DNA from: Thermoleophilum album
Lineage (GTDB): Bacteria; Actinomycetota; Thermoleophilia; Solirubrobacterales; Thermoleophilaceae
DNA: 64,000 nt
Reading direction: 5' to 3'
Assembly: GCF_900108055.1 (NCBI RefSeq)
Contig: NZ_FNWJ01000001.1
Location: 620,001 to 684,000, forward strand
The position numbers were made by a program, and so were the translations under genes. The notes under the pieces were generated by a model, which was given only the letters and a program-made list of their open reading frames with translations, was not told the DNA's origin and did no database searches. Positions 1 to 53,063 of the stretch are shown here, in pieces. The first letter of the stretch is position 1. Each line of letters opens with the position of its first letter.

Positions 1-67
1 CGAGCTCGGCAAGCGCGGCCGCCATCCCGTGCTCTTCGACACTGTCAGTCTGGCCGGCTTCGTGCAC
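1..67 (-). CDS. Possible 5' end of a gene running off the left edge
   Basis: On the minus strand a GTG at 67-65 opens a frame that stays open to the window edge (about 22 codons, starting MHEAGQTDSVEEHG) with mostly G or C in third position. A TAGAGT box sits exactly 7 nt upstream, the same spacing as at other putative leaderless starts in this window. Too little protein is visible to assign a family. The opposite strand also has an open frame here, so coding status is uncertain. Confidence 0.35.
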   Translation of the reverse strand, partial: MHEAGQTDSVEEHGMAAALAEL

Positions 68-74
68 GCGAGAG

Positions 75-80
75 ACTCTA
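75..80 (-). promoter_or_regulatory. Putative -10 box of the left-edge gene
   Basis: TAGAGT on the minus strand, 7 nt before the GTG at 67. It overlaps the first copy of a tandem 13-bp repeat (77-102), so a repressor bound there would cover the promoter. No good -35 hexamer is seen. Confidence 0.35.
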
Positions 81-102
81 TGTGCACCGTCTATGTGCAC
101 CG
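77..102. repeat. Perfect tandem 13-bp repeat with GTGCAC cores
   Basis: Positions 77-89 and 90-102 are identical (TCTATGTGCACCG). Each holds the palindrome GTGCAC (82-87 and 95-100), and a third GTGCAC lies at 62-67. The repeat lies in the promoter area of the putative left-edge gene, so a regulator-binding array is a reasonable guess. Confidence 0.5.
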
Positions 103-145
103 CGACCCGAGCCAGCTTCGCAGCGGCGTCAGAGTGTCTCGCGGC

Positions 146-2623: not shown

Positions 2624-2624
2624 C

Positions 2625-2640
2625 GACCGGTTGATCGGTC
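2625..2640. promoter_or_regulatory. Inverted repeat, possible operator
   Basis: GACCG, a 6-nt spacer and CGGTC form an inverted repeat just upstream of the minus-strand GGDEF/EAL start, in the short gap it shares with nucS. The spacing resembles operators of TetR-like dimers. No regulator gene is adjacent, so this is only a candidate. Confidence 0.3.
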
Positions 2641-2694
2641 AGACGTCCAGGTAAGACCGCGTCGCCACGCGCTCGAAGCGTCCGCGCGAGTGCC

Positions 2695-2700
2695 TAGCGT
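2695..2700 (+). promoter_or_regulatory. Putative -10 box of nucS
   Basis: TAGCGT, 9 nt upstream of the nucS GTG with no Shine-Dalgarno between. This is compatible with a leaderless or very short-leader transcript. Confidence 0.35.
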
Positions 2701-2709
2701 GCAGGCGCC

Positions 2710-3384
2710 GTGCGCCTGATCGTCGCCCGCTGCGAGGTGCTCTATGACGGCCGTCTTTCGACGCGTCTACCGGAAGCGGTGCGTTTGATCTTGCTCAAGG
2801 CCGACGGGTCGGTGATGGTCCATGCCGACAGCGGGGGATACAAACCGCTCAACTGGATGTCGCCGCCGACCGTGATCGAGGAGCACCACGACCGTTTGCG
2901 AATCGCGCGACTGCGACCACCCGCGGAGCAGATCGAGATCAAGCTGTGCGAAGTTCTGGCAGACCAGCGCTTCGCGCTCGATGCTTCCGTCCAGCTCGAA
3001 AAGGACGGTGTAGAGCGGGAGCTGCAGGATCTCTTGGAGCGCGATCCGCTAGCGATCCGCGAGGGGCTGCGGCTCGTGCGTAGGGAGTGGGCAACCGACC
3101 TCGGCCCGGTCGATCTGATGTGTCGCGACGAGCTTCGCGGAGGGTACGTGGCAATTGAGGTAAAGCGCGTCGCGACAATCGCCGCGGTCGAGCAGCTAAG
3201 CCGTTACCTCGAGCGAATCGGGCACGACCCGAGCCTGCGTCCCTGCTCGGGAATTCTGGTGGCTTGTGAGATCAAACCGCAGGCGCGGACTCTCGCGAAG
3301 GCGCGGGGAATCGAGTGCGTCGAGATCGATCTGCAGGCGCTGAGGGCTAGCGGCAGGAACGAGCTGCAACTGTTCGCGGCGTAG
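2710..3384 (+). CDS. nucS: Mismatch-specific endonuclease NucS
   Basis: NucS (EndoMS) cuts both strands at mismatches and is the core of the non-canonical mismatch repair used by actinobacteria and archaea lacking MutS/MutL. The 224-aa protein has the usual length. The N-terminal half is the beta-rich DNA-binding and dimerisation region. The C-terminal nuclease domain shows the catalytic Asp in GPVDLM (near residue 133) and the E-V-K pair in VAIEVKR (near 148-150). The last residues, ELQLFAA, look like the sliding-clamp-binding tail known in this family, which would tie it to the DnaN encoded at 50247. The start is GTG (MRLIVARCEV). No mutS or mutL is present in the window. Confidence 0.95.
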   Translation: MRLIVARCEVLYDGRLSTRLPEAVRLILLKADGSVMVHADSGGYKPLNWMSPPTVIEEHHDRLRIARLRPPAEQIEIKLCEVLADQRFALDASVQLEKDGVERELQDLLERDPLAIREGLRLVRREWATDLGPVDLMCRDELRGGYVAIEVKRVATIAAVEQLSRYLERIGHDPSLRPCSGILVACEIKPQARTLAKARGIECVEIDLQALRASGRNELQLFAA

Positions 3385-3414
3385 GCGAGCGGCGCGACCG
3401 GCAGGGGTGAGGCT

Positions 3415-3420
3415 TATCCT
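3415..3420 (+). promoter_or_regulatory. Putative leaderless -10 box
   Basis: TATCCT ends 7 nt before the ATG at 3428. It supports that ATG over the in-frame GTG at 3407, which would lie upstream of the promoter. Confidence 0.4.
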
Positions 3421-3427
3421 CGGCCCC

Positions 3428-4354
3428 ATGAAAAGCCTCGCTGAGGGCGGGCGCAGGCGCAGCAAGGAGGCGCGTGCGCACAGCTTCGTCCACGAAGGTC
3501 ACCGCCTGGTCTACGACGAGTACGGCTCGGGCCCGCGCCATGTCCTGCTGCTGCCGGGCCTTTTGTTCCCCCGCTGGCTGAACGACCCGCTCGCGACGGC
3601 ACTCGCTGCGCAGGGCTTCCACGTCTACACGCTCGACCTCTTGGGCCACGGCGAGTCCGATCGTCCGCGAGAGATGTGGGCGTACTCGATGACGCGTTTC
3701 GGCTCCCAAGCGATCGCCCTGCTCGACCACGTCGGCGCGGAACAGGCGGTCGTTGGCGGCCCATCGTTGGGCGCCAACACCACGCTCGAGGCGGCTGCGC
3801 TCGCGCCCGAGCGGATCCGCGGAATGGTGATTTCGATGCCGGTGCTGGACAACGCCCTGCTGGCCTGTGCGCTTGCCTTCACGCCGCTTTTGGTCGCCCT
3901 GACCTTCGGCGCACCGGCGATGCGGGGCTTGGCGGCCGTGGCTCGGCGCGTGCCACGTGGCCTTTCGCACCTGACCGATACTGGCCTCGACTGGCTCTCT
4001 CAAGATCCCAAGCCCTCGGCCTCGCTGCTCCAAGGTCTCTTCTACGGGCGCATCGCGCCGCCCCACGAGATGTGGCACGAGCTGCGTCAACCAGCGCTGG
4101 TTATCGGCCACCCGCGCGACCCTATCCACCCGTTCTCCGATGCCGACCAGCTGGTGCGCGAACTTCCCAACGCACGCTTGGTGCGCAGCGGCTGGATCTT
4201 GGAGCTTTGGACCTCGCCAGAGCGACTGACCGGCGAGATCGCCCGCTTCGCGGCGGACTGTTGGCGGGGCGTGGGGGCGGGTTCCACGCGCAGGACCCGC
4301 CGACGACCCGCTACCGTGCGAACTCGTCGTACCCGAAGTGCAAGCTCGAACTGA
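3428..4354 (+). CDS. Alpha/beta-hydrolase-fold protein, catalytic His not evident
   Basis: A protein of about 308 aa with the alpha/beta hydrolase fold. An HVLLLPG strand is followed by a DLLGHGESD loop, the nucleophile elbow GGPSLGAN (Ser near residue 113) and a late GHPRDPIHPF segment carrying the acid. Where the catalytic His normally follows (a GHxxxxE-type loop), the sequence reads SGWILELWTSPERL and no His is visible. It may have lost hydrolase activity or use another residue. I chose the ATG at 3428 because of the TATCCT box 7 nt upstream; a GTG at 3407 adds seven residues. It overlaps the next gene by 17 bp. The substrate is unknown. Confidence 0.85.
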   Translation: MKSLAEGGRRRSKEARAHSFVHEGHRLVYDEYGSGPRHVLLLPGLLFPRWLNDPLATALAAQGFHVYTLDLLGHGESDRPREMWAYSMTRFGSQAIALLDHVGAEQAVVGGPSLGANTTLEAAALAPERIRGMVISMPVLDNALLACALAFTPLLVALTFGAPAMRGLAAVARRVPRGLSHLTDTGLDWLSQDPKPSASLLQGLFYGRIAPPHEMWHELRQPALVIGHPRDPIHPFSDADQLVRELPNARLVRSGWILELWTSPERLTGEIARFAADCWRGVGAGSTRRTRRRPATVRTRRTRSASSN

Positions 4355-38133: not shown

Positions 38134-40130
38134 GACCAGCGAGCAGGGTAGACCTCGGCGCCGGTCGTCGCTGCCGCCGCATGCTGTTGCGAGGCTCGAC
38201 GGGCTCCCTGGAAGATCGCGACCAAACCGCAAACGACGCCAGTGGCAGCTACCTGGAGCGCGATTTTCGAGCTCGCATAGCCGAGCGTCACGCCGGTCAC
38301 CCCGGCTAGACGCGCGATTAGCAGTGCCACTAGCGCCAGCGCGCAGCCGCCGAGAACTGCCCGCCCCGGTGCACGGCCAAGCACCACCGGCCGTACCGCA
38401 AGCGCGACGAGCAACCACCCCGCAAGCTCGCCGGTGAGCTGCGCGAGCGTGCTCGACGATCCAGCGACGAAGAGCTGATCGAGGCTCACTGGTCGCAGCT
38501 CGGTAAGCAAGACATTGCCGAACGCGAGCTGGGCGGCGAGCGCCCACAGGAACCCGCAAACAACGACCAGCGTGCGTATCACCGGGGAGCGCAAGAGGCC
38601 AATCAGCACACACCACGGAAGCGCCCCGACAGTGGCGGCGGCGAGCGGCGCCACCAGCACGGCGCCGACCAGCGCCGGAGCGACGAGCGCGCCGATCAGC
38701 GTCACCGCGGCAGCAGCCCCCGCAGCGAGAGCCCCGGTGTCCGGCTCTATCGCGGTGATCGCGTGGAGACCGTGCGCGCCGGTAACCAGCACGAGCAGGC
38801 CGGCCATGATCACTAGCGCAGCCCCCAGGCGCGGCAAAGCAAAGCCGGCGAGTGCTGCCCCAACACTTGCCACCAAGGCTGGGGTCCCTGTGCTCGCTCC
38901 ACTGCCGAGCGTGGTCGCGAGCAACACCGCGCATCCGCTTTGAACGCCGCCAACCAGGCGCTTTACGAAGGCGCCGGCCCGAGCGGGCGGCGGAGCGGAC
39001 GGCGGTTTCGGTGGAGCGGGTTCCAGGTTCGAGGGGGCCGAGCGCAGATCCGACGGCTGGCGTTCGCGCATCAGCGTCGCTAGCTCGCGGGTGCGGGCGG
39101 TCGCCGTTCTGTCGCTTTTGGCAGACAGCGCCGGCAGGCCCAGGAGAAGCGCCGGTTTTTGGTGACCTTCCAATAAGCGCGAGTGCGGCGTTCGATCGGC
39201 AATTTGCGAGAGCAGTGCGCGGACCTCACGGGCCTGGGGACGATCGCCGGGCCGCGGCGCGAGCATTGCACCGACCAGGTTCGTCAGCTCACCGCCAAGG
39301 TCCGGTCGCAGCTGCTCTATCGGCCGCGGCTGCACGTACGGCGTCGGTCGCTCGTTAGCGAATGGAACTCCGGTCAGCAACTCGTAGAGACATGCGCCGA
39401 GGCCCCAAATGTCGGACGCTGCCTGCACCTCACCGCCCGTCGCCTGTTCTGGGGCCATGTAGGCGAGGGTTCCGACGATCTCGCCTGGCGTGGTCAGCGT
39501 CGTCGCACCGCGCTCGCCGAGGGCAGAGATCAGCGTCTGCGCAGCGTCCAGCGCGAGGCCAGCAACCCCGAAATCGGCCAGTTTCGCGGGCGGCGCGCCC
39601 TCCTGGCGATCGCCCACCAGCAGCACATTTTGCGGTTTGACGTCGCGGTGAACCACACCCCGCGCATGGGCGTGCGCGAGCGCATCGGCGACCGCCGCAC
39701 CTACGTCGAGCACCTCGGCGAGGCCCAACCTACGGGCGCGGCCTGCGCGCGCCAGGTCCGGGCCGTCGACGAGCTCGTAAACGAGCGCGAGGCCGTCACT
39801 CCACTCAAGGAACTCATAAAGCGCCACGATCGCCGGGTGGTGCAAGTTCGCGGCGAGTTTCGCCTCCCGTCGCACACGGCGCTCGTCCCACGCGGGGTCG
39901 ATGATCTTCACCGCTACGGCGCGACCAAGCCGCGCGTCGACCGCTTCGTAGACACAGCCCGCCGATCCACGCCCGAGCAGTCGCGTCACGCGGTAGCGGC
40001 GGTGGGCAGGTAACCAGTCGCCGGGCGCGAACACGAGCAGCGAGCGTCGACCTCGCGCCGGCGAGGAAACGGGGGCGGCGGGGCGTGTAGGCTCGTCGTG
40101 ACGCACCTCGGTTGGCCTTTCGCTCCCCAC
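38130..40130 (-). CDS. Ser/Thr protein kinase with polytopic membrane C-terminus
   Basis: A 666-aa kinase leading the growth operon. The kinase domain spans about 46-310: LLGRGSAGCVYEA, Lys 75 in VAVKII, HRDVKPQN (161-168), DFGVAG, and YMAPEQ with the SDIWGLG segment. After a Pro-rich linker come about seven or eight hydrophobic segments (about 400-655) with no recognisable family, replacing the single-helix-plus-sensor form of PknA/PknB. It could sense a membrane or lipid signal, or couple to a transporter-like partner; this is speculation. It overlaps fhaA by 4 bp. It occupies the place upstream of fhaA where mycobacteria have no kinase. Confidence 0.9.
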   Translation of the reverse strand: MGSERPTEVRHDEPTRPAAPVSSPARGRRSLLVFAPGDWLPAHRRYRVTRLLGRGSAGCVYEAVDARLGRAVAVKIIDPAWDERRVRREAKLAANLHHPAIVALYEFLEWSDGLALVYELVDGPDLARAGRARRLGLAEVLDVGAAVADALAHAHARGVVHRDVKPQNVLLVGDRQEGAPPAKLADFGVAGLALDAAQTLISALGERGATTLTTPGEIVGTLAYMAPEQATGGEVQAASDIWGLGACLYELLTGVPFANERPTPYVQPRPIEQLRPDLGGELTNLVGAMLAPRPGDRPQAREVRALLSQIADRTPHSRLLEGHQKPALLLGLPALSAKSDRTATARTRELATLMRERQPSDLRSAPSNLEPAPPKPPSAPPPARAGAFVKRLVGGVQSGCAVLLATTLGSGASTGTPALVASVGAALAGFALPRLGAALVIMAGLLVLVTGAHGLHAITAIEPDTGALAAGAAAAVTLIGALVAPALVGAVLVAPLAAATVGALPWCVLIGLLRSPVIRTLVVVCGFLWALAAQLAFGNVLLTELRPVSLDQLFVAGSSSTLAQLTGELAGWLLVALAVRPVVLGRAPGRAVLGGCALALVALLIARLAGVTGVTLGYASSKIALQVAATGVVCGLVAIFQGARRASQQHAAAATTGAEVYPARWS

Positions 40131-40278
40131 CGTCGCTCACCTCTCCGCGCGTGCGACGCTCGTGCGCCTCTCGCTCGCTGTCGAGGCGCGGTTCATACTT
40201 GGCACCCTGAGCAACCGAGCGCCGGAGCTACGAACACTGTTAGAGCAATCACAGTCGACCGCTCGCTCGCCTCGCCGC

Positions 40279-41304
40279 GTGGGACCTGATCCCCAGACCC
40301 TAATGGTCCGGCGCGGCGCCGCGATCGCGGGGATGCTGCTCTTCGTGATCGTCGCCGGTTTGGGTGTGCGCGGGTGTTTGGATGCCCGCAAGCGCGCTGC
40401 GATCAAGGATTGGACGGGCGATGCGGCAGCGCTGGTGCGGGAGTCGAACGCTCAAGGGACAACGCTCGTCGAGTTGCTGCAGGGCGGGCGCCGCGGCACC
40501 GATCCGGTGCAAGTCGAGAACGAACTCAACACGCTGCGCTCCGAGTCGCGTCAACTGGTGACTCGCCTCGAGGACCTAGGCCGTCCGGACGAGTTAGCAA
40601 GGCCCTACCGCTACTTACTCGAGGTGCTTGCGCTGCGGCGCGATGCGATCGACCGCATTGCCGATCAGTTGCCGCTAGCGATCGGTGATCGCGGTGCCGC
40701 GCAGGCCACCGAGCGGATCGCTGCGGAGGTACAGACGCTGCTGGCCGCCGACGTGCTCTACCGGGTTCGCTTCTTGACCGAGCTGCGCGCGGTGCTGCGC
40801 AGCGAGGGGCTGGCCGACGAGGTGGCGTTGCCGCGCAGCGAGATCATCAAGGACCTGACCCTGCTCGACCCCGCCCGTATCGCCGACGGCATCAACGCCC
40901 TGCGTAACGGTGGGGGACGCGAGCAGGCGACTGCCCGGCCCGGTTTGCACGGCACCGGGATCGTTACGGCGAGTATCGGCGGCCAGCCGCTCGCGAACGG
41001 CGGCTCCGCGACGGTCACGCTCCGCGGCCCCCTGAGCGCACAGGTGCAAGTAGCCAACCAAGGTGAAAGCGACGAGATGGGGGTGCGGGTGCGGGTGCGG
41101 ATCGGCAGTGGCCCGGGTGCTATAGAGGCAGGGGCCCGCATCGAGTGCATCGCCCGCGGTCAGACGGCCACTGTGACGGTGCCGATCACGCGCGAACCAC
41201 CGACCGGTCAGCAGGTCCCAGTCGAGGTGCGCGTCGATCCGGTGCCTGGCGAGCGCAAGACCGATAACAACGTGCTGCGCGCGAGCGTGATCTTTACGCG
41301 CTGA
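40279..41304 (+). CDS. Membrane-anchored protein with CARDB-like C-terminal domain
   Basis: Unknown function; about 341 aa with this start. One N-terminal helix (AAIAGMLLFVIVAGLGVRGCL), a charged helical region with TTLVELLQGG and LVTRLEDLGRP (about 60-210) probably outside, then a beta-rich CARDB-like domain (about 230-340) ending in TDNNVLRASVIF. Start uncertain: the frame is open from GTG 40162, but 40162-40278 is AT-richer than the gene and contains a rare TTA codon, so it looks intergenic. ATG 40303 is the other candidate. It is divergent from the kinase operon, so the gap may hold both promoters. Confidence 0.8.
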   Translation: MGPDPQTLMVRRGAAIAGMLLFVIVAGLGVRGCLDARKRAAIKDWTGDAAALVRESNAQGTTLVELLQGGRRGTDPVQVENELNTLRSESRQLVTRLEDLGRPDELARPYRYLLEVLALRRDAIDRIADQLPLAIGDRGAAQATERIAAEVQTLLAADVLYRVRFLTELRAVLRSEGLADEVALPRSEIIKDLTLLDPARIADGINALRNGGGREQATARPGLHGTGIVTASIGGQPLANGGSATVTLRGPLSAQVQVANQGESDEMGVRVRVRIGSGPGAIEAGARIECIARGQTATVTVPITREPPTGQQVPVEVRVDPVPGERKTDNNVLRASVIFTR

Positions 41305-41409
41305 GCTGGTCGGCGAGTCACCGGCGTCGCTCGAGCTGCTCGCCGAATCAGCGGCGCCCGCTGCGCGCGGCGGAGATCTTGACCGCCCGGGTCTTGCGCG
41401 CCCCGCTAG

Positions 41410-41415
41410 TACATT
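41410..41415 (+). promoter_or_regulatory. Putative -10 box of the DUF4446 gene
   Basis: TACATT ends 9 nt before the GTG at 41425. A TTGACC lies at 41379-41384, but the spacer is 25 bases, too long for a normal pair. Confidence 0.35.
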
Positions 41416-41424
41416 TGCCCGGCG

Positions 41425-41982
41425 GTGGATACCCCTGCGTTGGAAATCGCGGTCGCGGTCGCGGCCCTTGCCGTGGCAGCTGCCGCGATGGTGGCTCTGG
41501 TGTTCGTCTACCGGAGGATCCGCCAGCTGCGGCGAGATCAGGAGGCGGTGCTCGGTTCGGGGGAGCCTCGAGACCTCATTGCCCACGCGCACGAGCTGCA
41601 GCGCAGGGTCGACGAGTTCGCAGCGCGTCTCGACGCGCTGGAAAGAAAGCTCGCATCGGGACTCGCCGATGTCGAAACGCAGCTTTCGCTGTGTCTCGAC
41701 CGCCACGGACTCGTTCGCTACGACGCATACAACGAGATGTCGGGCCGGCAGTCGGCCTCGCTAGCCCTCTTAGATCGCGCCGGCAACGGCCTGGTGTTGT
41801 CATCGATCGTGCATCGCGAACAGGCGCGTTTGTATGCGAAGCGGATGATCGGCGGAAAAGCCGACGTACCACTCTCGCCAGAGGAACAGCAGTGCGTCGA
41901 GGAGGCGTTGGCGCGGTCCTGGATCGAGAAGGATCCCGAGCTACGCGCCGAGCGGGGCGGTGGCGATCGCTTTCGCGGCTGA
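41425..41982 (+). CDS. DUF4446-family membrane protein
   Basis: A 185-aa protein with one N-terminal helix (about 8-28), a coiled-coil-prone stretch (about 35-85) and the DUF4446 core: LDRHGLVRYDAYNEMSGRQS, LLDRAGNGLVLSSIVHREQ and RLYAKRM. The family is widespread in Firmicutes and Actinobacteria without assigned function. Residues near the end (PLSPEEQQCVEEAL) are also conserved. The last 23 bases overlap the start assigned to pheA. Confidence 0.88.
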   Translation: MDTPALEIAVAVAALAVAAAAMVALVFVYRRIRQLRRDQEAVLGSGEPRDLIAHAHELQRRVDEFAARLDALERKLASGLADVETQLSLCLDRHGLVRYDAYNEMSGRQSASLALLDRAGNGLVLSSIVHREQARLYAKRMIGGKADVPLSPEEQQCVEEALARSWIEKDPELRAERGGGDRFRG

Positions 41983-42880
41983 AGCGCCGCACGCAGTGAT
42001 TCGCGTCTGTTACCTCGGGCCTGCGGGCACCTTCACCGAGGAGGCGTTGCGTGCGTCGGCAGCTCAGGTGGTCGCGGGCGACTTCCAGATCGAAGAGGTC
42101 CCGCTCGCCAGCGAACGGGAAGTGGTGGAAGCGATCGGCGAGCGCTCTTGCGAGCTCGGTGTCGTGGCTATCGAGAACGCCTTGGAGGGCGGTGTAGCGG
42201 CGACGCTCGACGCCTTGGCGGAGCAAGCCGATCGCGTCGCGATAAAGATGGAGGTCGTCCATCCGGTCCGCCACTGTCTGGTTGCGCGGCGAGCACTCGA
42301 CCTTGCCGAGGTCACGCGCGTCTACTCGCACCCAATCGCGACCGCCCAGTGCGCGCGCTTCTTGCGCGAGCGCCTACCGCGGGCGCAGCGCATCGCCTGT
42401 GCATCGACGGCGGAGGCTGTGCGCGCGGTCGCTGCTGCCAACGAACCATGGGTCGCGCTGGGTTCACAGCTGGCAGCGCAGTTGTACGACTGCGTGGTCT
42501 TGGCAAGCGACGTCTCCGACCATGCCGGCAACGAGACTCGTTTCGTGTGGTTGGAGCCGCGTTCCGCGCATCGGCCAGCCAGGGGCGACGGCGTGAAGAC
42601 GTCGATCGTCTTCTGGGGTAGCGGTGACGAACGCCCTGGCTGGCTGGTGTCGGTGCTCTCCGAGCTGGCCGAGAGGCGCATCAACCTGACGCGCATTGAG
42701 TCGCGCCCGCGCCGCATTGGTCTCGGCCACTACATGTTTTTCTGTGATCTCGAGGGGTCGCCCCTGGACCGGCCGGTGGCGGCCGCACTCGAGGCGGTGC
42801 GCAGCAAGGTCGAAGAGCTACGCCTTCTAGGCAGCTATCCGGTGTTGCGCACCGACCAAGCAGCCGATAACCGAGGCTGA
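41960..42880 (+). CDS. pheA: Prephenate dehydratase
   Basis: A monofunctional PheA turning prephenate into phenylpyruvate for Phe synthesis. The 306-aa protein has the dehydratase domain (about 12-190) with VCYLGPAGTFTEEAL, GVVAIENALEGGV, YSHPIATAQC and SDHAGNETRFVWL (a TRF-type motif). A C-terminal ACT domain (about 205-295) has KTSIVFWGSG, RINLTRIESRPRR and MFFCDLEG, the ESRP element being the Phe-binding allosteric signature. It is therefore probably feedback-inhibited by Phe. No chorismate mutase domain is fused. The start overlaps the DUF4446 gene. Confidence 0.95.
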   Translation: MAIAFAAEAPHAVIRVCYLGPAGTFTEEALRASAAQVVAGDFQIEEVPLASEREVVEAIGERSCELGVVAIENALEGGVAATLDALAEQADRVAIKMEVVHPVRHCLVARRALDLAEVTRVYSHPIATAQCARFLRERLPRAQRIACASTAEAVRAVAAANEPWVALGSQLAAQLYDCVVLASDVSDHAGNETRFVWLEPRSAHRPARGDGVKTSIVFWGSGDERPGWLVSVLSELAERRINLTRIESRPRRIGLGHYMFFCDLEGSPLDRPVAAALEAVRSKVEELRLLGSYPVLRTDQAADNRG

Positions 42881-42913
42881 TCGTGTCGTCCCGCGGCTAC
42901 ACTGGCCGCGAAA

Positions 42914-43528
42914 GTGGCTGTTCGTCCGGCACCGGCCGGGGTCACCGAGGTCGTCGACCCGGAACCTCACCCTAGCGGCGCGCCGTCCGCTGTGGACCAG
43001 GGCGGGCGGCGCGAGCAGGCTGGTGGCCGCGTGCTGGTCCTCAACGCGACGTACGAGCCGATCAACGTCTGCACGGTTCGGCGTGCGACGGTGCTGGTGT
43101 TGAAGGAGCGTGCTGAGATCCTCGAGCATGGCGACGGTGCGCTGCACGCCGAGCGCATGGTGCTGCCACGCCCGTCGGTGATCCGCCTGCGGCGTTTCGT
43201 GCATGTACCGCGAGCGACTTTTGCCCGGCGAATCACACGCCGGGCGATCTTCGCTCGCGACGGCTGGACCTGCCAGTACTGCGGCGAGCGTCGCGGGGTG
43301 CTGACGGTCGACCACGTGGTTCCGCGTTCGAAGGGCGGTAGCTCGACGTGGGACAACATCGTGACGTGTTGCGCGACCTGCAACCGGCGCAAGGGCGACC
43401 GCCTTCCTGACCAGGCCGGCATGGTCCCGATGCGCAAGCCGCGGGCTCCATCTCCGACGATCTTCGTGCACGTTGCCGTACCGCGCGTGCCAGAGAGCTG
43501 GCGTCAGTACTTGAAAGACGCGGCTTAA
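42914..43528 (+). CDS. HNH endonuclease-family protein
   Basis: A 204-aa protein of the conserved actinobacterial HNH family. VLVLNATYEPINVCTVRRA opens the conserved part. The zinc/HNH module is CQYCGERRGVLTVDHVVPRSKGG with DNIVTCCATCNRRKGDR, showing both CxxC pairs, the DH and the Asn/His-like metal site. The first 38 residues are poorly conserved, so a GTG further in (about 43030) may be the true start. A TACACT box lies 10 nt before the GTG at 42914. Biological role unknown; often found as a core gene rather than a mobile one. It is convergent with gyrA. Confidence 0.9.
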   Translation: MAVRPAPAGVTEVVDPEPHPSGAPSAVDQGGRREQAGGRVLVLNATYEPINVCTVRRATVLVLKERAEILEHGDGALHAERMVLPRPSVIRLRRFVHVPRATFARRITRRAIFARDGWTCQYCGERRGVLTVDHVVPRSKGGSSTWDNIVTCCATCNRRKGDRLPDQAGMVPMRKPRAPSPTIFVHVAVPRVPESWRQYLKDAA

Positions 43529-43548
43529 GTAGCTGGTAGCTCGGAATC

Positions 43549-43563
43549 CCCGGGCCCTCCGGG
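43549..43563. terminator. Possible bidirectional terminator hairpin
   Basis: CCCGG, a 5-nt loop and CCGGG form a 5-bp GC stem between the convergent HNH and gyrA genes. There is no T tract, so this is only a candidate. Confidence 0.3.
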
Positions 43564-43625
43564 TCGCCCGGTCTCGCACGACCGCTTGCGCGCTTGCGTC
43601 CTTCGGCGCTTGGCTGCTTGCGCTC

Positions 43626-46154
43626 TTAACCCTGGTGATCGTCGCGACGGCCTGCGTTCTCGTCGAGCGAAGGAGTCGCGTCGCTCGCAGCAGTCTGGGT
43701 GTCCTCCTCGACCACCGCGACCGCACTCACGCGGTCACCCGGTCTGAGGTTCATCAGCTTCACGCCGGTCGCCGTGCGGCCCTGGCGCGATATGCCGCGT
43801 ACGGCCGTGCGCTGGACCATTCCGTTCTGCGATACGACGACGATCTCTTGGTGTTCGCGAACGACCAGCGCTCCCGCCAACTTGCCCTTGCGTTCGGTCA
43901 GGTTGATGGTCTTGACGCCCATTGTCCCGCGACCCTTGATCGGGTACTCCTCGACTGGCGTCCGTTTCGCGAAGCCGTTTTCGGTGACGACGAGGAGCTC
44001 GGTCCCCGGTTCGGCGACGTCCATCGCGATCACCTCGCCGCCGCGGGCCAGGTTCATGCCGCGCACACCGCTGGTGTCGCGTCCCATCGGTCGCACCTCG
44101 CGTTCGTGGAAACGCACCGCGTGCCCTGTGCTCGAGACCATCAGGATCGTGTCCTCTCCGCTCGTCCCGCGCACCGACACCAACTCGTCGCCCTCGCGGA
44201 TTCGGATCGCGATGATGCCGTCGGCTTTGATCGGCGTGTTGTAGGCAGCGAACTCGGTCTTCTTGATCATGCCCCGGCGCGTCGCGAACACCAGGAAGCG
44301 ACTCTCGTCGAAGTTGCGCGTGTCGAGGACGGCCCGCACCTCTTCGCCGGGGCGCAGCGGCAGCAGGTTCACAAGCGCCCGACCCTTCGACGTACGTGAA
44401 CCCTCCGGCAGCTCGTAGACCTTGAGCCGGTAGACGCGCCCGTGGTTGGTGAAGAACAGCAGGTAGTCGTGGGTCGAGCACACCAAAAGGCGGGCGACGT
44501 AGTCGTCCTCCTTGGTCTCCATGCCAGTTACCCCCACTCCGCCGCGCTTCTGTTTGCGGTAGGTGGCGAGGGGGATCGACTTCACATAGCCGGACTTGGT
44601 AATCGTGACGACCATCTTCTGGTCGGCGATCAAATCCTCGATGTCGATCTCGCCCTCGGCGTGAGTGATCTCCGTTCGCCGTTCGTCGGCGTAGCGCTGC
44701 TTGATCTCCAACAACTCCTCTTTGATAAGCGCCATCACCCGGCGCTCGTCGCCGAGGATCTCGCGCAGCTCACGGATCCGCTCGACGGTGTCGGCGTGTT
44801 CTTGTCGGATCTTGTCTGCTTCGAGCGCCGTAAGGCGTTGGAGGCGTAGATCGAGGATTGCTTGCGCCTGCACCTGGGACAGCTCGAACCGCTCCATCAG
44901 GCGCGCTCTGGCAGTCTCGGGATCGCGCGACGACCGGATTAACTCGATCACAGCATCGATATCGCCGATCGCGATCAGCAGACCCTCAAGAATGTGAAGC
45001 CGCCGCTCGCGCTCTCGTAGCTCGTGCTTGGTCCGACGAACTACGACCTCTCGCTGGTGGTCGACGTAGTTCTTGATCAGTTGTACTAGGCCAAGGGTGC
45101 GCGGCACACCGTCGACCAGTGCCACCATGTTGACGCCGAACGTAGTCTGCATCGGCGTGTGCTTGTAGAGCTTGTTGAGTACGACTTTCGGAACGGCGTC
45201 CCGCTTGAGCTCGATCACGAGTCGCACGCCCGACTTGTCGGACTCGTCGCGTAAGTCGGAGATTTCCTTAATGCGACCGTTCTCGACCTGTTCGGCGATC
45301 TTTTTGATCAGGCCCGCACCTTCATTGCGCCCGTCACCCTTGGCGACCTGGTAGGGCATCTCGGTAACGACGATCGCCTGCTTGCCGTGGCGCAGGGGCT
45401 CCACATGGGCGCGGGCCCGCACCGTGAGCCGACCACGGCCGGTCCGGTACGCCTCGCGTATGCCCTCGCGACCGACGATGATTCCGCCAGTCGGGAAATC
45501 GGGCCCTTGCAGGTGCCGCATCAGTCCATCGACGTCGATTTGTGGATCGTCGATGAAGGCGACGACTGCGTCGATTGCTTCGCCGAGGTTGTGAGGTGGG
45601 ATGTTGGTGGCCATGCCGACCGCGATCCCTGAGGCCCCGTTGACCAGCAGATTCGGAAAGCGCGAAGGGAGAACAAGTGGCTCGAGGCGCGACTCGTCGT
45701 AGTTCGGCCCGAAGTCGACCGTGTCGGCGTCGATGTCCCGCAACATTTCGGTCGCGAGCCGCGCAAGCCGGGCCTCGGTGTAACGCATGGCCGCGGGCGG
45801 ATCGTTGTCGATGGATCCAAAGTTGCCCTGGCCGTCGACCAGCGGGTAGCGCATCGCGAAGTCCTGGCCCAGCCGGACGAGGGCGTCGTAGATAGCGGCG
45901 TCGCCGTGTGGGTGGAAGTTACCCATCACGTCGCCGACCACGCGCGCGCACTTACGGTAGGGCCGGTTCGGCTGCAGCCCGGACTCGTGCATCGCGAAAA
46001 GTACGCGCCGGTGTACAGGCTTAAGGCCGTCGCGTACATCGGGAAGAGCTCGCCCCACGATCACGCTCATCGCGTAATCGAGGTAGGAGGAACGCATTTC
46101 CTCCTCGATGCCGCGCGGCTCGATGTTGCCACCTGTTAGCTGCTCTACAGACAA
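43626..46154 (-). CDS. gyrA: DNA gyrase subunit A
   Basis: The DNA-breaking subunit of gyrase, 842 aa. The breakage-reunion domain has [35 protein letters not shown] and MRYTEARL with the catalytic Tyr near residue 125. The QRDR reads [10 protein letters not shown]; Ala follows Asp where Ser or Ala is usual, and Ala is also native in mycobacteria. The C-terminal beta-pinwheel begins after [11 protein letters not shown], a GyrA box with Val in place of the second basic residue, and carries repeats such as [11 protein letters not shown] and [12 protein letters not shown]. It follows gyrB by about 70 bases, as in the standard origin-proximal order. Confidence 0.97.
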
Positions 46155-46222
46155 GGTAGGTCCCCGTGTGAGGTGCTCGAATGGGCTTTCCGGCCTTTAC
46201 CTAGCAACTCGTTAGACGCTTG

Positions 46223-48745
<2,523 letters not shown>

Positions 48746-48825: not shown

Positions 48826-49113
48826 TCAGGAGCGACCGCTTAGGTGGAGATCCGTGAGCGCGAAGCCGCGGGCGCGCAGTTGTTCAGCGAGCTCTTTCCG
48901 ACGCAGGTCTAGCTCGGCCCGAACGATGGGGTCGGGGCAGTGGATGTGGAGGGTGCGCTGGTCGATGCGCTGTGGTGTGGCGTGAGTCGCAACAAAACTG
49001 CCGACGATCTCCCGCCAGGCAGTAAGGATGGCTGGCGGTAGCAGATTAGGTGCCTCGAGCGTGTCGAGGTTATTGAGGATCTCGCGCAATGAGCGAGGTA
49101 GTGGTCGCCGCAT
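48826..49113 (-). CDS. dciA: DciA-type DUF721 protein
   Basis: A small (95 aa) DUF721 protein. The N-terminal part LPRSLREILNNL is followed by the conserved KH-like core: ILTAWREIVGSFVATHATPQRI, LHIHCPDPIVRAELDLRRKEL. DciA proteins serve as replicative helicase operators/loaders in bacteria that lack DnaC/DnaI. Its place between recF and gyrB is the standard actinobacterial one. The start overlaps recF by 44 bases. Confidence 0.88.
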   Translation of the reverse strand: MRRPLPRSLREILNNLDTLEAPNLLPPAILTAWREIVGSFVATHATPQRIDQRTLHIHCPDPIVRAELDLRRKELAEQLRARGFALTDLHLSGRS

Positions 49114-50242
49114 GGTGGCTCGGGTTGACGTGCGTGCTGGGGGCTGGCGGGCTTAGATGTTTAGGGGGACGCGCACCCTGCCTGAGGGCTGAGACGTCCA
49201 CAAGGCAGGTATCCGTTGTGTCTGTGAGGGATGGGCAAAAATAGGTGTCGGTGGAAGTGATGAGGGTTTGACCTAGAGCCCCGGCTCGCGCTATGAGCAG
49301 CCGGCGGCGGCGTTCCTCAAGCTCTCCTAGGGGATCGTCGAGTAGGAGCAGTGGTTCGCTACCACGCCAGGCAGCAATCAGGCGTGCCTCAGCAAGGATG
49401 AGTGCTAACACGAGGGTCCGCTGTTCACCTTGGGAAGCAAAGGTCTTAGCTGGCTGACGAGCGATCGTTAGAATCACGTCGTGGCGGTGGGGTCCGACTG
49501 TGGTTGTGCGTAGTCGCGCATCGCGCATGCGGCTCGCGACGAGCGCGCGGCTTATTCCCTCGGCGTCTAGCTCGCAATCGGGAGCTCCGTAGCGAAGCTG
49601 GCAGGTCGCCAGTCCTAGCTGCTCTGCTTCTTCCGTAAGAAGCGGGGCGAGGGACTCGAGCACCTGGAGCCGGGCGGCGACCAGTTCAGCCCCTAGGCGC
49701 GCCAGCTGTTCCTCCCAGGCATCAAGAGCGCCCGGATGATGGGCTGCGAGGCATGCAGTCCGCTGCGCGACAGCCTCCCGGTAGGAGCGAATGACGGCAT
49801 CAACGCGGGGGATTAGGAGTGCGGCGAGTCGATCAAAGTGCAGTCTTCGGACGCCTGGTTGGCCGCGTATGAGCTCCACCCGTTGTGGAGTAAAGACGCA
49901 TAAGGGTGATCGGAGGGTGACCAATGAGCGTTTCGGTGCGGGCTCATTGTCGATAAAGATCTGGGAGCTAGTCGGTGTCAAGACAAGCCGAAAGTGACGG
50001 GCTCTACCCTTCTCATCGAACATCTCACTGTGCGCGGTTGATATCTGCGAGCCACGAGCCATTAGCGCACTGAGACCGCCCGGCCTTAGGTAGTGACCTG
50101 AGAGCGTTGCGTAAGCACCCTCGAGAAGGGTTGTTTTGCCAACACCATTCGCGCCAGTTAGAATGGTTACTCTATGATCGATGTTCAGCCGCACGTAAGC
50201 AAAACAACGAATACTTTGGAGTGTTATCGACTCTAGGTGCAA
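49070..50242 (-). CDS. recF: DNA replication/repair protein RecF
   Basis: An SMC-like ABC ATPase acting with RecO/RecR at gaps, 390 aa. It starts with TTG (MHLESITLQSIRCFAYVRL), has Walker A TGANGVGKTTLLEG, a signature-region FASQGEQRTLVLALILAEA and Walker B LLLLDDPLGELEERRR. A poorly conserved tail follows (AATTTSLIARDPQ). Base composition is clearly lower in GC than in most of the window. Coding begins 4 bases after the dnaN stop, so they are co-transcribed. Confidence 0.95.
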   Translation of the reverse strand: MHLESITLQSIRCFAYVRLNIDHRVTILTGANGVGKTTLLEGAYATLSGHYLRPGGLSALMARGSQISTAHSEMFDEKGRARHFRLVLTPTSSQIFIDNEPAPKRSLVTLRSPLCVFTPQRVELIRGQPGVRRLHFDRLAALLIPRVDAVIRSYREAVAQRTACLAAHHPGALDAWEEQLARLGAELVAARLQVLESLAPLLTEEAEQLGLATCQLRYGAPDCELDAEGISRALVASRMRDARLRTTTVGPHRHDVILTIARQPAKTFASQGEQRTLVLALILAEARLIAAWRGSEPLLLLDDPLGELEERRRRLLIARAGALGQTLITSTDTYFCPSLTDTTDTCLVDVSALRQGARPPKHLSPPAPSTHVNPSHHAATTTSLIARDPQ

Positions 50243-50246
50243 AAGA

Positions 50247-51356
50247 TCACGTGTTCAAGCGAATAGGCATCACCAGGTAGAGCATTTTCTGGTTGGCGTC
50301 TTGCGACTCTGATTCGATAAGTGCGGGTCGTAAGGGTGTAAGGAGTTTGAGGCGAATAGTCTGCGACAGAGCGGTCTCGAGTCCGTCACGAAGGAAGTCG
50401 GGGTTGAAGCCGATCTCGAACTCATCGGCGGAGTAGGAAATGGGGAGTCTCTCGCTCGCTTCACCCACCTCCGGTGTCTCTGCGCTGACCTCGAGCTCTC
50501 CTGGGCGGAAGCGCAACCGCAGTGGTGAGTGGCGTTGAGCTAGAAGAGCGACGCGTCTCACGACATCGAGGAGCTCGTCGCGGTCGAGAGATAGTTCGTG
50601 CTCCCAAGTGTCGGGTAGTAGCTGTTCGTAACTCGGGAAGCGTCCCTCGACAAGGCGTGAGACCATCCGCACACGGCCCAGCAGGAAGATTACTCTTTGC
50701 TCGTCGACGGCAAGCCGGAGATGCGACTCTTCGAGTTGTCCTCCGATGCGTGCCAACTCCTGGAGTGAGCGTGCGGGAATGTTGGCGTCGATGCCTTCGC
50801 TAGGGACCGGCACTTCGATGACGGCGAGTCGGTAAGAGTCGGTTGCGACGAGACGCAGGCGACTGGAGGAACTTTGAAGTAGTACGCCGGTGAGATGCGG
50901 GCGTGTTTCGTCGCGCGAAGCCGCGCGTGCAACGCGGGCGATCGCATCAGAGAGGGAGGAGAAGGGCAGGTCCACGAGCTTGTCGGTGGGTAGGTCGTCG
51001 ACGAACGCGGGGAAGTCGGCGGTAGGAAGGCAACGCAGGGTGAAGTGCGCGTTGCCGGAGCGCAGGGAAATCGAGCTGTCGCTGGACGACTCGAGCGTGA
51101 CGCGATCGGATGGCAGGTTGCGAACAACGTCGACGAAGATGCGGCCCGGTACAACAACTTCGCCTTGCTCGGCGATGCTCGCGTCGACCTGCGCGGCGAG
51201 CGATAGCTCCATGTCGGTGGCCGCCAGCTCGAGGGACTCGTTGCGAGTCGTCAGGCGGATCCCCGCAAGCACTTGCAGAGACGGACGCGAGGAAACAGCG
51301 CGACCGACAATTGCGGTCGCGTTCACGAGATCAGTCTTAGCGAGTTCGAGCTTCAC
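50247..51356 (-). CDS. dnaN: DNA polymerase III sliding clamp (beta)
   Basis: The ring-shaped processivity factor, 369 aa, three-domain clamp. It begins MKLELAKTDLVNATAIVGRAVSSRP. The second domain has LTGVLLQ and RLRLVATDSYRLAV. The end has KMLYLVMPIRL, which matches the canonical clamp C-terminus. GTG start. It is a candidate partner of the NucS C-terminal clamp motif. GC is lower here than elsewhere: a hand count of 50281-50340 gives 30 G+C in 60. Confidence 0.97.
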   Translation of the reverse strand: MKLELAKTDLVNATAIVGRAVSSRPSLQVLAGIRLTTRNESLELAATDMELSLAAQVDASIAEQGEVVVPGRIFVDVVRNLPSDRVTLESSSDSSISLRSGNAHFTLRCLPTADFPAFVDDLPTDKLVDLPFSSLSDAIARVARAASRDETRPHLTGVLLQSSSSRLRLVATDSYRLAVIEVPVPSEGIDANIPARSLQELARIGGQLEESHLRLAVDEQRVIFLLGRVRMVSRLVEGRFPSYEQLLPDTWEHELSLDRDELLDVVRRVALLAQRHSPLRLRFRPGELEVSAETPEVGEASERLPISYSADEFEIGFNPDFLRDGLETALSQTIRLKLLTPLRPALIESESQDANQKMLYLVMPIRLNT

Positions 51357-51414
51357 GGGAGAAGTGATTGTGGTTGATCTGTCGGATGGTGTTGGTTGGC
51401 GGGTGTCCGGTTCG

Positions 51415-52911
51415 CTATAGGGGGTGAGGGGAGGAGTGGGAGGTGTCCGGGCCTGTCGGGCGGTCTGTCGGGTGGGTGTCGGCTGGCGGTTGGGGTGGCG
51501 GGGGGTAGGTGGTGGTGTGGGTATAGGAGTGGTCGGGCTGTCGGGAGCGGTTGGTTTCGGTTGTCGGATGAAGCTGCGCCCGCGAGCGGGTCAGCGCGAG
51601 GAGGTCGGAGAACCGGCGGTCACGTTGCTCGAGGTCTTTGGCAGAGCGGATCATTCCGACCACCGTGCTGTGACTGCGACCGCCGAGGAGGCGCCCGATC
51701 TCCGGAAGAGTTGCGCGGGCTAGCTCGCGAAGCAGGAGGGCTGCGGCGGCGCGGGCGCGGGTGACCTGCGTGGTGCGGGTGCGGCCGCGGATCGCGTCGA
51801 GGGGTATCGAGAAGCAATCAGTGACCGCTGCTAGCACAAGGTCGGCGTCGGGGCGCGGTAGCTGTGGTGGGTTGGTTCGTGTCAGCAAGTGGTCGACGAG
51901 TTCGGTCGACGGGGGCTCGCCGCGTAAAGACGCGTACGTTGATACCTGAACGACGGCGGAGTGAAGGGCGAGGGGATTCGGGGGTGAGAGGTCGCAGATG
52001 CGCTGTATGACGGGGTCGGGCAGAACGACGCCTGTCGCCTGGCATGCGCGGTGTGCGAGCGTGGGGGCTGCGTCCTTGGGTGGGTCTGTCACTTCGAGCG
52101 GTAGTGCCGCGTCAAGTTCGCGCGCCAGGGTGGGAGCGCTGGTTGTGAGGCGGTCAGCTTGCTTGCTGGCCACCAGTAGGACTTTGCTGCCGCGGGTGCG
52201 CAGATGGAGGATTACTTCCCCGAGTACTTCCGCGGTCTGAGTGCGGCTCAGTAGGAGGTCGAGGTCATCGACTACTAGCAGCTCGATGCGACCGAGCGTC
52301 TCACGAAGGTCGGTTACGGCACGCGCCCGCACCGCCCGCACGAACGCGCTCGTGAAGTCCTGCGCTGTGAAGTAGGCAACGCGAGAGGGGGTTGCAGCCG
52401 AGCGGTAGAGGGCGGCACTCGCCTGGACAAGGTGCGACTTGCCAGTTCCCCGCCTGCCGTGAATCAGTACCACGGGGAAAGGAGGTGTGCGGTGCTCGGC
52501 AATCGTCAAGGCAGCGGCGTGCGCCAGTCGGTTGCCGTCGTGGACCACGTAGGTGTCGAAACGGAACTGCGGGTCGAGCGGAGAGGAGCCAGTGAGCGAG
52601 GTTTCGGCGCCGCGATCTGAGTGGGAGCGTCGCGGGCCAGGCTCGGGAACCTGCTCGCGAGCCTCGTACGTGACGCGCGCATGGGCGCCGATCACCGCGC
52701 GCGCAGCGCGCAACACAAGGTCGCCGTAGCGTTCGGCCAGCCACTGGCGACGGCCAGCGGGGACGACCACACGCAGGCAACCACTGCTGTCGGCTGAGAG
52801 CGAGAGGTCGGAGAGCCAAAGCTTGTAGGTGACCGCTGGCGCTTGCGACCGGAGCGCCGAGTGGAAGCGCTCGGTAAGGCTCGCTGCGGGTGCTTGCGGG
52901 CGCGTGCTCAT
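51415..52911 (-). CDS. dnaA: Chromosomal replication initiator DnaA, divergent
   Basis: The initiator ATPase, 498 aa from ATG 52911. Domain I: LTERFHSALRSQ and YKLWLSDLSLSAD. AAA+ domain: Walker A HGRRGTGKSHL (about 151-160; Ser for the usual Thr) and Walker B LLVVDDLDLL (about 208-217). Sensor I reads VASKQADRL instead of the usual TSDRxP. Box VII reads TLARELDAALPLEV with no Arg at the arginine-finger place. Sensor II reads NPLALHSAV instead of NVRELEGAL. Domain IV is recognisable (TLPEIGRLLGGRSHSTVV), but GGRDHTTV is GGRSHSTV. A 50-residue Pro/Thr/His tail follows. It is the only DnaA in the window and sits in the normal place. Confidence 0.93.
   Translation of the reverse strand: MSTRPQAPAASLTERFHSALRSQAPAVTYKLWLSDLSLSADSSGCLRVVVPAGRRQWLAERYGDLVLRAARAVIGAHARVTYEAREQVPEPGPRRSHSDRGAETSLTGSSPLDPQFRFDTYVVHDGNRLAHAAALTIAEHRTPPFPVVLIHGRRGTGKSHLVQASAALYRSAATPSRVAYFTAQDFTSAFVRAVRARAVTDLRETLGRIELLVVDDLDLLLSRTQTAEVLGEVILHLRTRGSKVLLVASKQADRLTTSAPTLARELDAALPLEVTDPPKDAAPTLAHRACQATGVVLPDPVIQRICDLSPPNPLALHSAVVQVSTYASLRGEPPSTELVDHLLTRTNPPQLPRPDADLVLAAVTDCFSIPLDAIRGRTRTTQVTRARAAAALLLRELARATLPEIGRLLGGRSHSTVVGMIRSAKDLEQRDRRFSDLLALTRSRAQLHPTTETNRSRQPDHSYTHTTTYPPPPQPPADTHPTDRPTGPDTSHSSPHPL
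51420..51530 (+). other. G-rich, strand-asymmetric stretch
   Basis: The plus strand over the dnaA 3' end is strongly G-rich: 35 G against 9 C in 51421-51480. It has many G runs (for example GGGGTGAGGGG and GGCGGGGGGTAGG) that could fold into G-quadruplexes. On the coding strand it encodes the Pro/Thr/His-rich DnaA tail. It may be a coding by-product or may matter for the origin. Confidence 0.6.
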
Positions 52912-52929: not shown

Positions 52930-53063
52930 GGAACGGGGCACTGGCGGGCCCGCTGGTGAGCGGCAGAGAAACCGCTAAACGCGGCCGAAATCTGACCTAG
53001 CGCGGGTAGGCCGTCGTTGCCGCCGCGACACGATGCGGTTGCCCCCTGCCTGCCGCCGCCCCG
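52930..53063. other. dnaA-rpmH intergenic region, candidate origin divergence point
   Basis: Genes diverge from here: dnaA/dnaN/recF/gyrBA to the left, rpmH/rnpA/yidC/parAB to the right. This makes it the positional candidate for oriC. I see no TTATCCACA-like DnaA box (either strand) and no AT-rich unwinding stretch in it; it is GC-rich. The origin may use divergent boxes or lie elsewhere. Confidence 0.35.

Follow-up and report, generated by a model that had tools for sequence, protein, structure and literature searches.

The dnaA locus of Thermoleophilum album

DnaA is the protein that starts chromosome copying. The window considered here, a stretch of 64 kb from the Thermoleophilum album genome (2.2 Mb in 5 contigs, 95.6% complete), carries dnaA on the minus strand, from 52911 to 51415, with a translation of 498 amino acids. 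The reading frame is open from 52941 to 51415, giving 508 amino acids from a GTG start at 52941 or 498 from the ATG at 52911, and every DnaA domain falls within this single frame; no frameshift was found. The surroundings are those usual for the gene, a dnaA-dnaN-recF-gyrB cluster beside rpmH and rnpA. After dnaA come dnaN, recF, dciA and gyrB, in that order, and before it, divergently oriented, rpmH (53109) and rnpA.

46223-48655, minus strand: gyrB
48826-49113, minus strand: dciA, helicase loader (PF05258)
49070-50242, minus strand: recF-like gene
50247-51356, minus strand: dnaN
51357-51414, no strand: gap between dnaA and dnaN, 58 bp as against about 90-150 bp in relatives
51415-52911, minus strand: dnaA, 498 amino acids, the sole DnaA found in the genome
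51418-51570, minus strand: C-terminal tail of DnaA (residues 448-498), rich in Pro, His and Thr, predicted to be disordered
51571-51849, minus strand: domain IV, the DNA-binding domain (DnaA residues 355-447), intact, signature GGRSHSTV

Just upstream of the gene, 52971-52985 reads GGCCGCGTTTAGCGG, and a CGCGATTTGCGG-like motif is kept at that place across the order (L005-L032).

The protein is a true DnaA orthologue, the only one found. Its ATPase domain matches Bac_DnaA (PF00308) at 97.9 bits, well over the gathering score of 23, and its DNA-binding domain matches PF08299 at 56.8 bits (gathering score 31.5). Domain I (PF11638) scores 18 bits, below the cut-off of 24.6, and is predicted with high confidence in a structure model. 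The score against the NCBIfam DnaA equivalog TIGR00362, 218 bits, falls short of its cut-off of 343.9.

Residues lost and kept in the AAA+ domain

A sequence-only reading of this DNA had proposed that the protein lacks the arginine finger and the sensor II arginine while keeping Walker A and Walker B, and had cited by eye the stretches TLARELDAAL, VASKQADRL and NPLALHSAV. All three are present in the translated gene. Residue columns were defined by alignment to 28 canonical DnaAs of the same order and to those of Bacillus subtilis and Thermotoga maritima, with B. subtilis numbering used in the text and T. album numbering in the list:

52432-52458, minus strand: Walker A, GRRGTGKSH (residues 152-160), intact
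52291-52293, minus strand: AID-1 position (E. coli R227), Gly207; Arg in 28 of 28 relatives, Gly in the genus-mate
52258-52284, minus strand: Walker B region, ELLVVDDLD (residues 210-218); both Asp kept, conserved Gln of DDxQ replaced by Asp
52165-52167, minus strand: sensor I Asp position, Ser249
52114-52131, minus strand: box VII, TLAREL (residues 261-266); box VII Arg (E. coli R281) replaced by Thr261
52117-52119, minus strand: codon of the arginine finger position (E. coli R285), Glu265; a stray Arg264 lies one residue off
51952-51978, minus strand: sensor II helix, NPLALHSAV (residues 312-320); sensor II Arg (E. coli R334) replaced by Leu314 (codon 51970-51972)

Four arginines, those of AID-1, box VII, the arginine finger and sensor II, are present in all 28 relatives from the order, and none of the four is present in either T. 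album or its genus-mate (G001), so the two losses first noticed by eye are borne out and recur in a second genome. In T. album and the genus-mate, respectively, R206 of AID-1 has become G and G, R260 of box VII T and S, and R313 of sensor II L and S, while the finger itself, R264, is E in the one and deleted in the other. As the columns align, the AID-1 arginine, which the sequence-only reading did not mention, is lost as well, and in T. album the sensor I aspartate (D248) is replaced by S. What binds the nucleotide in cis has fared otherwise: K157 of Walker A and D214/D215 of Walker B are kept in T. album. The AID-2 leucine and the basic B-motif residue are kept too. In both genomes 7 of 8 cis-pocket residues are kept by identity, as against none of the four trans and sensor arginines (Fisher p about 0.01).

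The arginine of TLAREL was considered as a shifted finger and rejected, since it lies one residue before the finger column, with the helix register off. Nor does it serve as a substitute shared by the genus. The corresponding stretch of the genus-mate, TSDSDNPPLALPLPDTSLLHVELSPPEPPAH, contains neither Arg nor Lys, and therefore no substitute is common to both genomes; the genus-mate's DnaA has in fact lost the box VII helix segment.

A single DnaA and a DnaC-type loader

A Bac_DnaA search of the T. album genome (95.6% complete) found no second DnaA. The only other match is an AAA+ protein encoded directly after dnaB, a DnaC-type loader of a kind present across the family. The genus-mate likewise gave no second DnaA, its Bac_DnaA matches being DnaA and the DnaC-type loader only. 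The loaders of the genus retain the box VII arginine, in the form RRT[IV]SRL.

L002:1183-2145 (G000:C1, about 704.9-705.9 kb): DnaC-type loader, next to dnaB

The loaders of the genus and of two further genomes (G010 and G007) have some 50 additional residues inserted ahead of the box VII arginine; other members of the family lack this insertion.

Distribution of the losses

The comparison within the genus rests on two genomes, T. album and the near-complete, single-contig G001, whose DnaA is 40% identical to that of T. album; in a third, G002 (72% complete), the dnaA region is missing. When 300 genomes of the class were searched with TIGR00362, 283 exceeded the cut-off and 4 gave no hit. T. 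album scored E-64 and G001 E-53, and the other hits that were not evident fragments scored about E-96 or better. A few further genomes scored poorly (about E-7 to E-27); their assemblies are fragmented, and the hits seem to be partial genes. Among the 300, then, the outliers are the two members of the genus.

One might suppose that decay of the AAA+ domain is a general trait of divergent actinobacterial DnaAs. Low-scoring DnaAs occur in three families (f24, f30 and f45) among 248 genomes of the phylum, and 11 of these proteins were read. All 11 keep the arginine finger, as SR, and the sensor II arginine, as NIR or SIR, including those examined from f24 and f45 (L191-L199), which fall below the NCBIfam DnaA cut-off and yet keep both. 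Divergence alone therefore does not usually cost these residues, and the supposition was rejected. The losses probably arose in the genus, before its two sampled lineages split. Single-sequence searches of genome-contig and viral-contig collections with T. album DnaA found no relatives, and an alignment-based search gave mainly matches from Firmicutes.

Unequal conservation of domains

Near-invariant positions of the AAA+ domain are kept in only 36 of 84 cases in T. album and 41 of 84 in the genus-mate, as against 74-78 of 78-80 in each canonical member (about 95-100%). Those of the DNA-binding domain are kept in 11 of 13 and 10 of 13 cases, respectively. The DNA-binding domain is also the best-conserved part of DnaA between the two genomes, with 55% identity against 38% for the AAA+ domain, whereas in the family the order is reversed (51% against 65%).

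Rates were compared through the ratio of genus-to-family distance to within-family distance in trees of the same 13 genomes. The ratio is 3.5-3.6 for the AAA+ domain of DnaA, 2.1-2.2 for its DNA-binding domain, 3.2-3.3 for DnaN, 2.9-3.0 for RecF and 1.5-1.8 for GyrB, all approximate because long branches are estimated poorly. Since DnaN and RecF are fast too, the acceleration is common to the dnaA-dnaN-recF block, and some of the divergence of DnaA belongs to the locus as a whole. In the genus, the three genes also have in common a marked excess of C over G on the coding strand at third codon positions (skew -0.22 to -0.58; 49070-52911 in the window, 1-4300 in G001); in the relatives, third-position skew of dnaN and recF is mostly near zero.

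An AlphaFold model made from an alignment with 19 relatives has a mean pLDDT of 81, about 90 across domain III, and the predicted domain III superimposes on that of T. maritima DnaA (2z4r) with Z 28.9 and an rmsd of 1.7 A over 239 residues. Since canonical DnaAs were part of the alignment and may pull the model towards the canonical fold, what the model shows, short of proof, is that the T. album sequence is compatible with the fold of DnaA domain III.

The putative origin region

In both genomes of the genus, sampled GC skew changes sign near dnaA, most values being below zero on one flank and above zero on the other, at low amplitude. Cumulative skew reaches its lowest point towards the gyrA/gyrB end of the cluster (39000-47000 in the window), not at dnaA, so replication may in truth start a few kb away from the gene.

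Classical DnaA boxes (TTRTCCACA) are absent from the window and form no cluster in either genome. Canonical relatives likewise lack them beside dnaA, and so their absence is not evidence that the origin has been lost. Within 20 kb around dnaA, no cluster of consensus boxes was found in three families of the order (f1-f3), and a fourth (f4) has a few boxes. Canonical relatives carry TC[ACG]ACA sites in the gap between dnaA and dnaN. In T. album, the DnaA tail of about 50 residues reads over the DNA that corresponds to the relatives' non-coding origin, and there lies a set of candidate sites:

51380-51567, minus strand: candidate DnaA-site array, six direct repeats of CCGACA at 51567, 51544, 51482, 51471, 51459 and 51385

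Four of the six are CCGACAG, and three are spaced 11-12 bp apart. Six copies on one strand within 284 bp make this the densest cluster in the window, and the genus-mate has five copies at the same place, the 3' end of dnaA. Dinucleotide shuffles of the segment match the CCGACA counts in 0.02% or fewer of trials. Any hexamer at all is equally frequent in 12% and 5% of trials (for the two genomes), and the strength of the observation therefore lies in the same hexamer occurring at the same place in both. Genome-wide, close pairs of CCGACA number 5 in T. album and 6 in the genus-mate, near the control level, with 2 at the 3' end of dnaA in each. One repeat pair is homologous between the genomes (CCGACACCCACCCGACAGACCGCCC and CCGACATTCACCCGACAGTTCGCCC, 21 of 25 positions identical); its conservation may reflect the DNA, the encoded protein or the two together. 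Coding sequence runs through the array, whose conservation is shared in part with that of a peptide, D-x-H-P-T-x-R-P-T, so that selection on the protein is a possible alternative reason for its conservation.

Across the order (L005-L032), base 6 of the DnaA-box-like TCNACA sites in the dnaA-dnaN gaps varies with the residue at the Asp position of GRDHTTV. Asp goes mostly with C (9 of 15), Asn with a mix of G, A and C, and Arg with G (10 of 11), counts that ignore phylogeny and the G-rich background. Perhaps residue and base co-vary in specificity.

How replication may start

Judged by its residues, T. album DnaA is a variant DnaA whose four-arginine loss is common to two species. The residues concerned have well-studied roles. 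In E. coli, ATP-dependent assembly requires the arginine finger (R285) together with AID-1 and box VII. Hydrolysis of ATP requires the sensor II arginine (R334), yet a functional initiation complex can do without that residue (PMC5742627; PMC3401641). The sequence-only reading had assigned both arginines to assembly; this stands for the finger and does not for sensor II. With both kinds of arginine gone, the protein would be expected to bind ATP but not to assemble in response to it, nor to hydrolyse it efficiently.

The reading we favour, to which we give a probability of roughly 0.5, is that T. album DnaA would still bind the origin but would have lost the ATP-driven switch between subunits, with the array and the DnaC and DciA loaders supporting initiation. 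The missing residues of AID-1, box VII and the arginine finger are those of the interface that senses the ATP of a neighbouring DnaA, and the missing sensor II arginine is that of hydrolysis; the ATP-binding pocket and the DNA-binding domain are retained. DnaA would mark the origin by binding the array of near-identical CCGACA(G) sites, while ATP-dependent assembly and the ATP/ADP timing switch would be lost or greatly weakened. Bound ATP might then be structural, or might serve as a docking site for the intact box VII arginine of the DnaC loader. A model from Aquifex aeolicus has the box VII arginine of DnaC docking into the ATP site of DnaA (PMC3401641), and such docking would explain why the pocket has been kept. 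Helicase loading would proceed through DnaA domain I, DnaC and DciA, and timing would be set by the amount or titration of DnaA rather than by ATP hydrolysis.

There is a precedent for such an arrangement. In vivo, an E. coli oriC in which all sites accept DnaA-ADP rescues the otherwise lethal DnaA(R285A), although initiation is then mistimed (PMC6727663), and an origin of that sort fits the CCGACA array. On the other hand, arginine-finger mutants of three other DnaAs fail to open the origin in vitro (PMC8287927), so loss of the finger with nothing to compensate should do harm, which counts against a DnaA that works with no switch. In its boldest form, in which the genus has a DnaA-oriC system free of the ATP switch, its DnaA having naturally lost both ATP-dependent self-assembly and ATP hydrolysis, with a tandem array of equivalent sites and docking of the DnaC arginine on DnaA-bound ATP to compensate, the proposal is more tentative. 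Some oligomerisation may persist, as the 11-12 bp spacing of the tandem sites would suit contact between neighbouring AAA+ domains, and it is possible, as was first suggested from the sequence, that the protein oligomerises differently or depends on a partner.

Two alternatives deserve the most weight, though each seems unlikely. Perhaps DnaA is no longer the essential initiator but a DNA-binding transcription factor or a protein of the origin region, and replication starts independently of it, as in some cyanobacteria. A role in transcription would give just what is seen, an eroded AAA+ domain with the DNA-binding domain retained; DnaA-independent replication is documented in species that still encode dnaA (PMC7198777); and neither genome of the genus has a cluster of classical boxes. 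Such boxes, however, are scarce beside dnaA in canonical relatives too, the ATP pocket has been kept, a candidate array lies at the usual place of the origin, and in both genomes GC skew, at low amplitude, changes sign close to dnaA, whereas in the DnaA-independent cyanobacteria it is mostly irregular. Or perhaps, with about the same slim chance, the interface has been rewired, other residues replacing the lost arginines, so that ATP-dependent assembly persists in a different oligomer. The retained P-loop, Walker B, AID-2 leucine and basic B-motif residue, the confidently predicted AAA+ fold, and tandem sites at a distance suited to side-by-side DnaA all accord with this. Against it, no box VII substitute is shared, the genus-mate having lost the helix segment and every Arg or Lys of the stretch, and T. 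album has lost the sensor I aspartate besides.

Far less probable is relaxed selection, with dnaA on its way to becoming a pseudogene and its role passing to some other initiator that has escaped recognition. DnaA, DnaN and RecF are indeed highly divergent in the genus, and T. album has lost 48 of 84 near-invariant AAA+ residues, but full-length open frames persist in two lineages whose DnaAs are only 40% identical, the DNA-binding domain and P-loop have been selectively kept, and so has the gene order. An artefact (a sequencing error, a misalignment, or a canonical dnaA in the unassembled part of a 95.6% complete genome in 5 contigs) is hardly credible, given the same losses in an independent single-contig genome that also has no second DnaA, the normal place of the gene, and the agreement of the residue alignment with a phmmer alignment to solved DnaAs.

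The arginine finger of DnaA has been described as invariant (PMC8287927), and whether initiation demands ATP-dependent DnaA filaments is still debated (PMC6727663). Here a natural genus has a sole DnaA devoid of the entire arginine interface and may start replication with no ATP switch of the usual kind; it offers a direct test of how an origin is opened, and initiation held to once per cycle, when that switch is missing.

Comparison with known systems

With the canonical DnaAs of B. subtilis, T. maritima, A. aeolicus and E. coli, the T. album protein shares the domain order I-II-III-IV, Walker A and Walker B, the predicted fold of domain III, the DNA-binding signature GRxHxT and the position beside dnaN; it differs in lacking the four arginines and the FFHTFN and NPLF motifs. 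The very divergent DnaAs of families f24, f30 and f45 resemble it in their divergence, but the 11 examined keep the finger and the sensor II arginine. The DnaA-independent cyanobacteria that retain dnaA (PMC7198777) offer a parallel in that DnaA may have become less tightly tied to replication; in the genus, however, it is AAA+ residues that have gone, and the dnaA locus can still be recognised by its GC skew. The synthetic combination of DnaA(R285A) and its altered oriC (PMC6727663) is alike in pairing an initiator that lacks the arginine finger with an array of equivalent sites. That strain was engineered and initiates at the wrong time, whereas the loss in the genus is natural, occurs in two species, and takes in sensor II, box VII and AID-1 as well.
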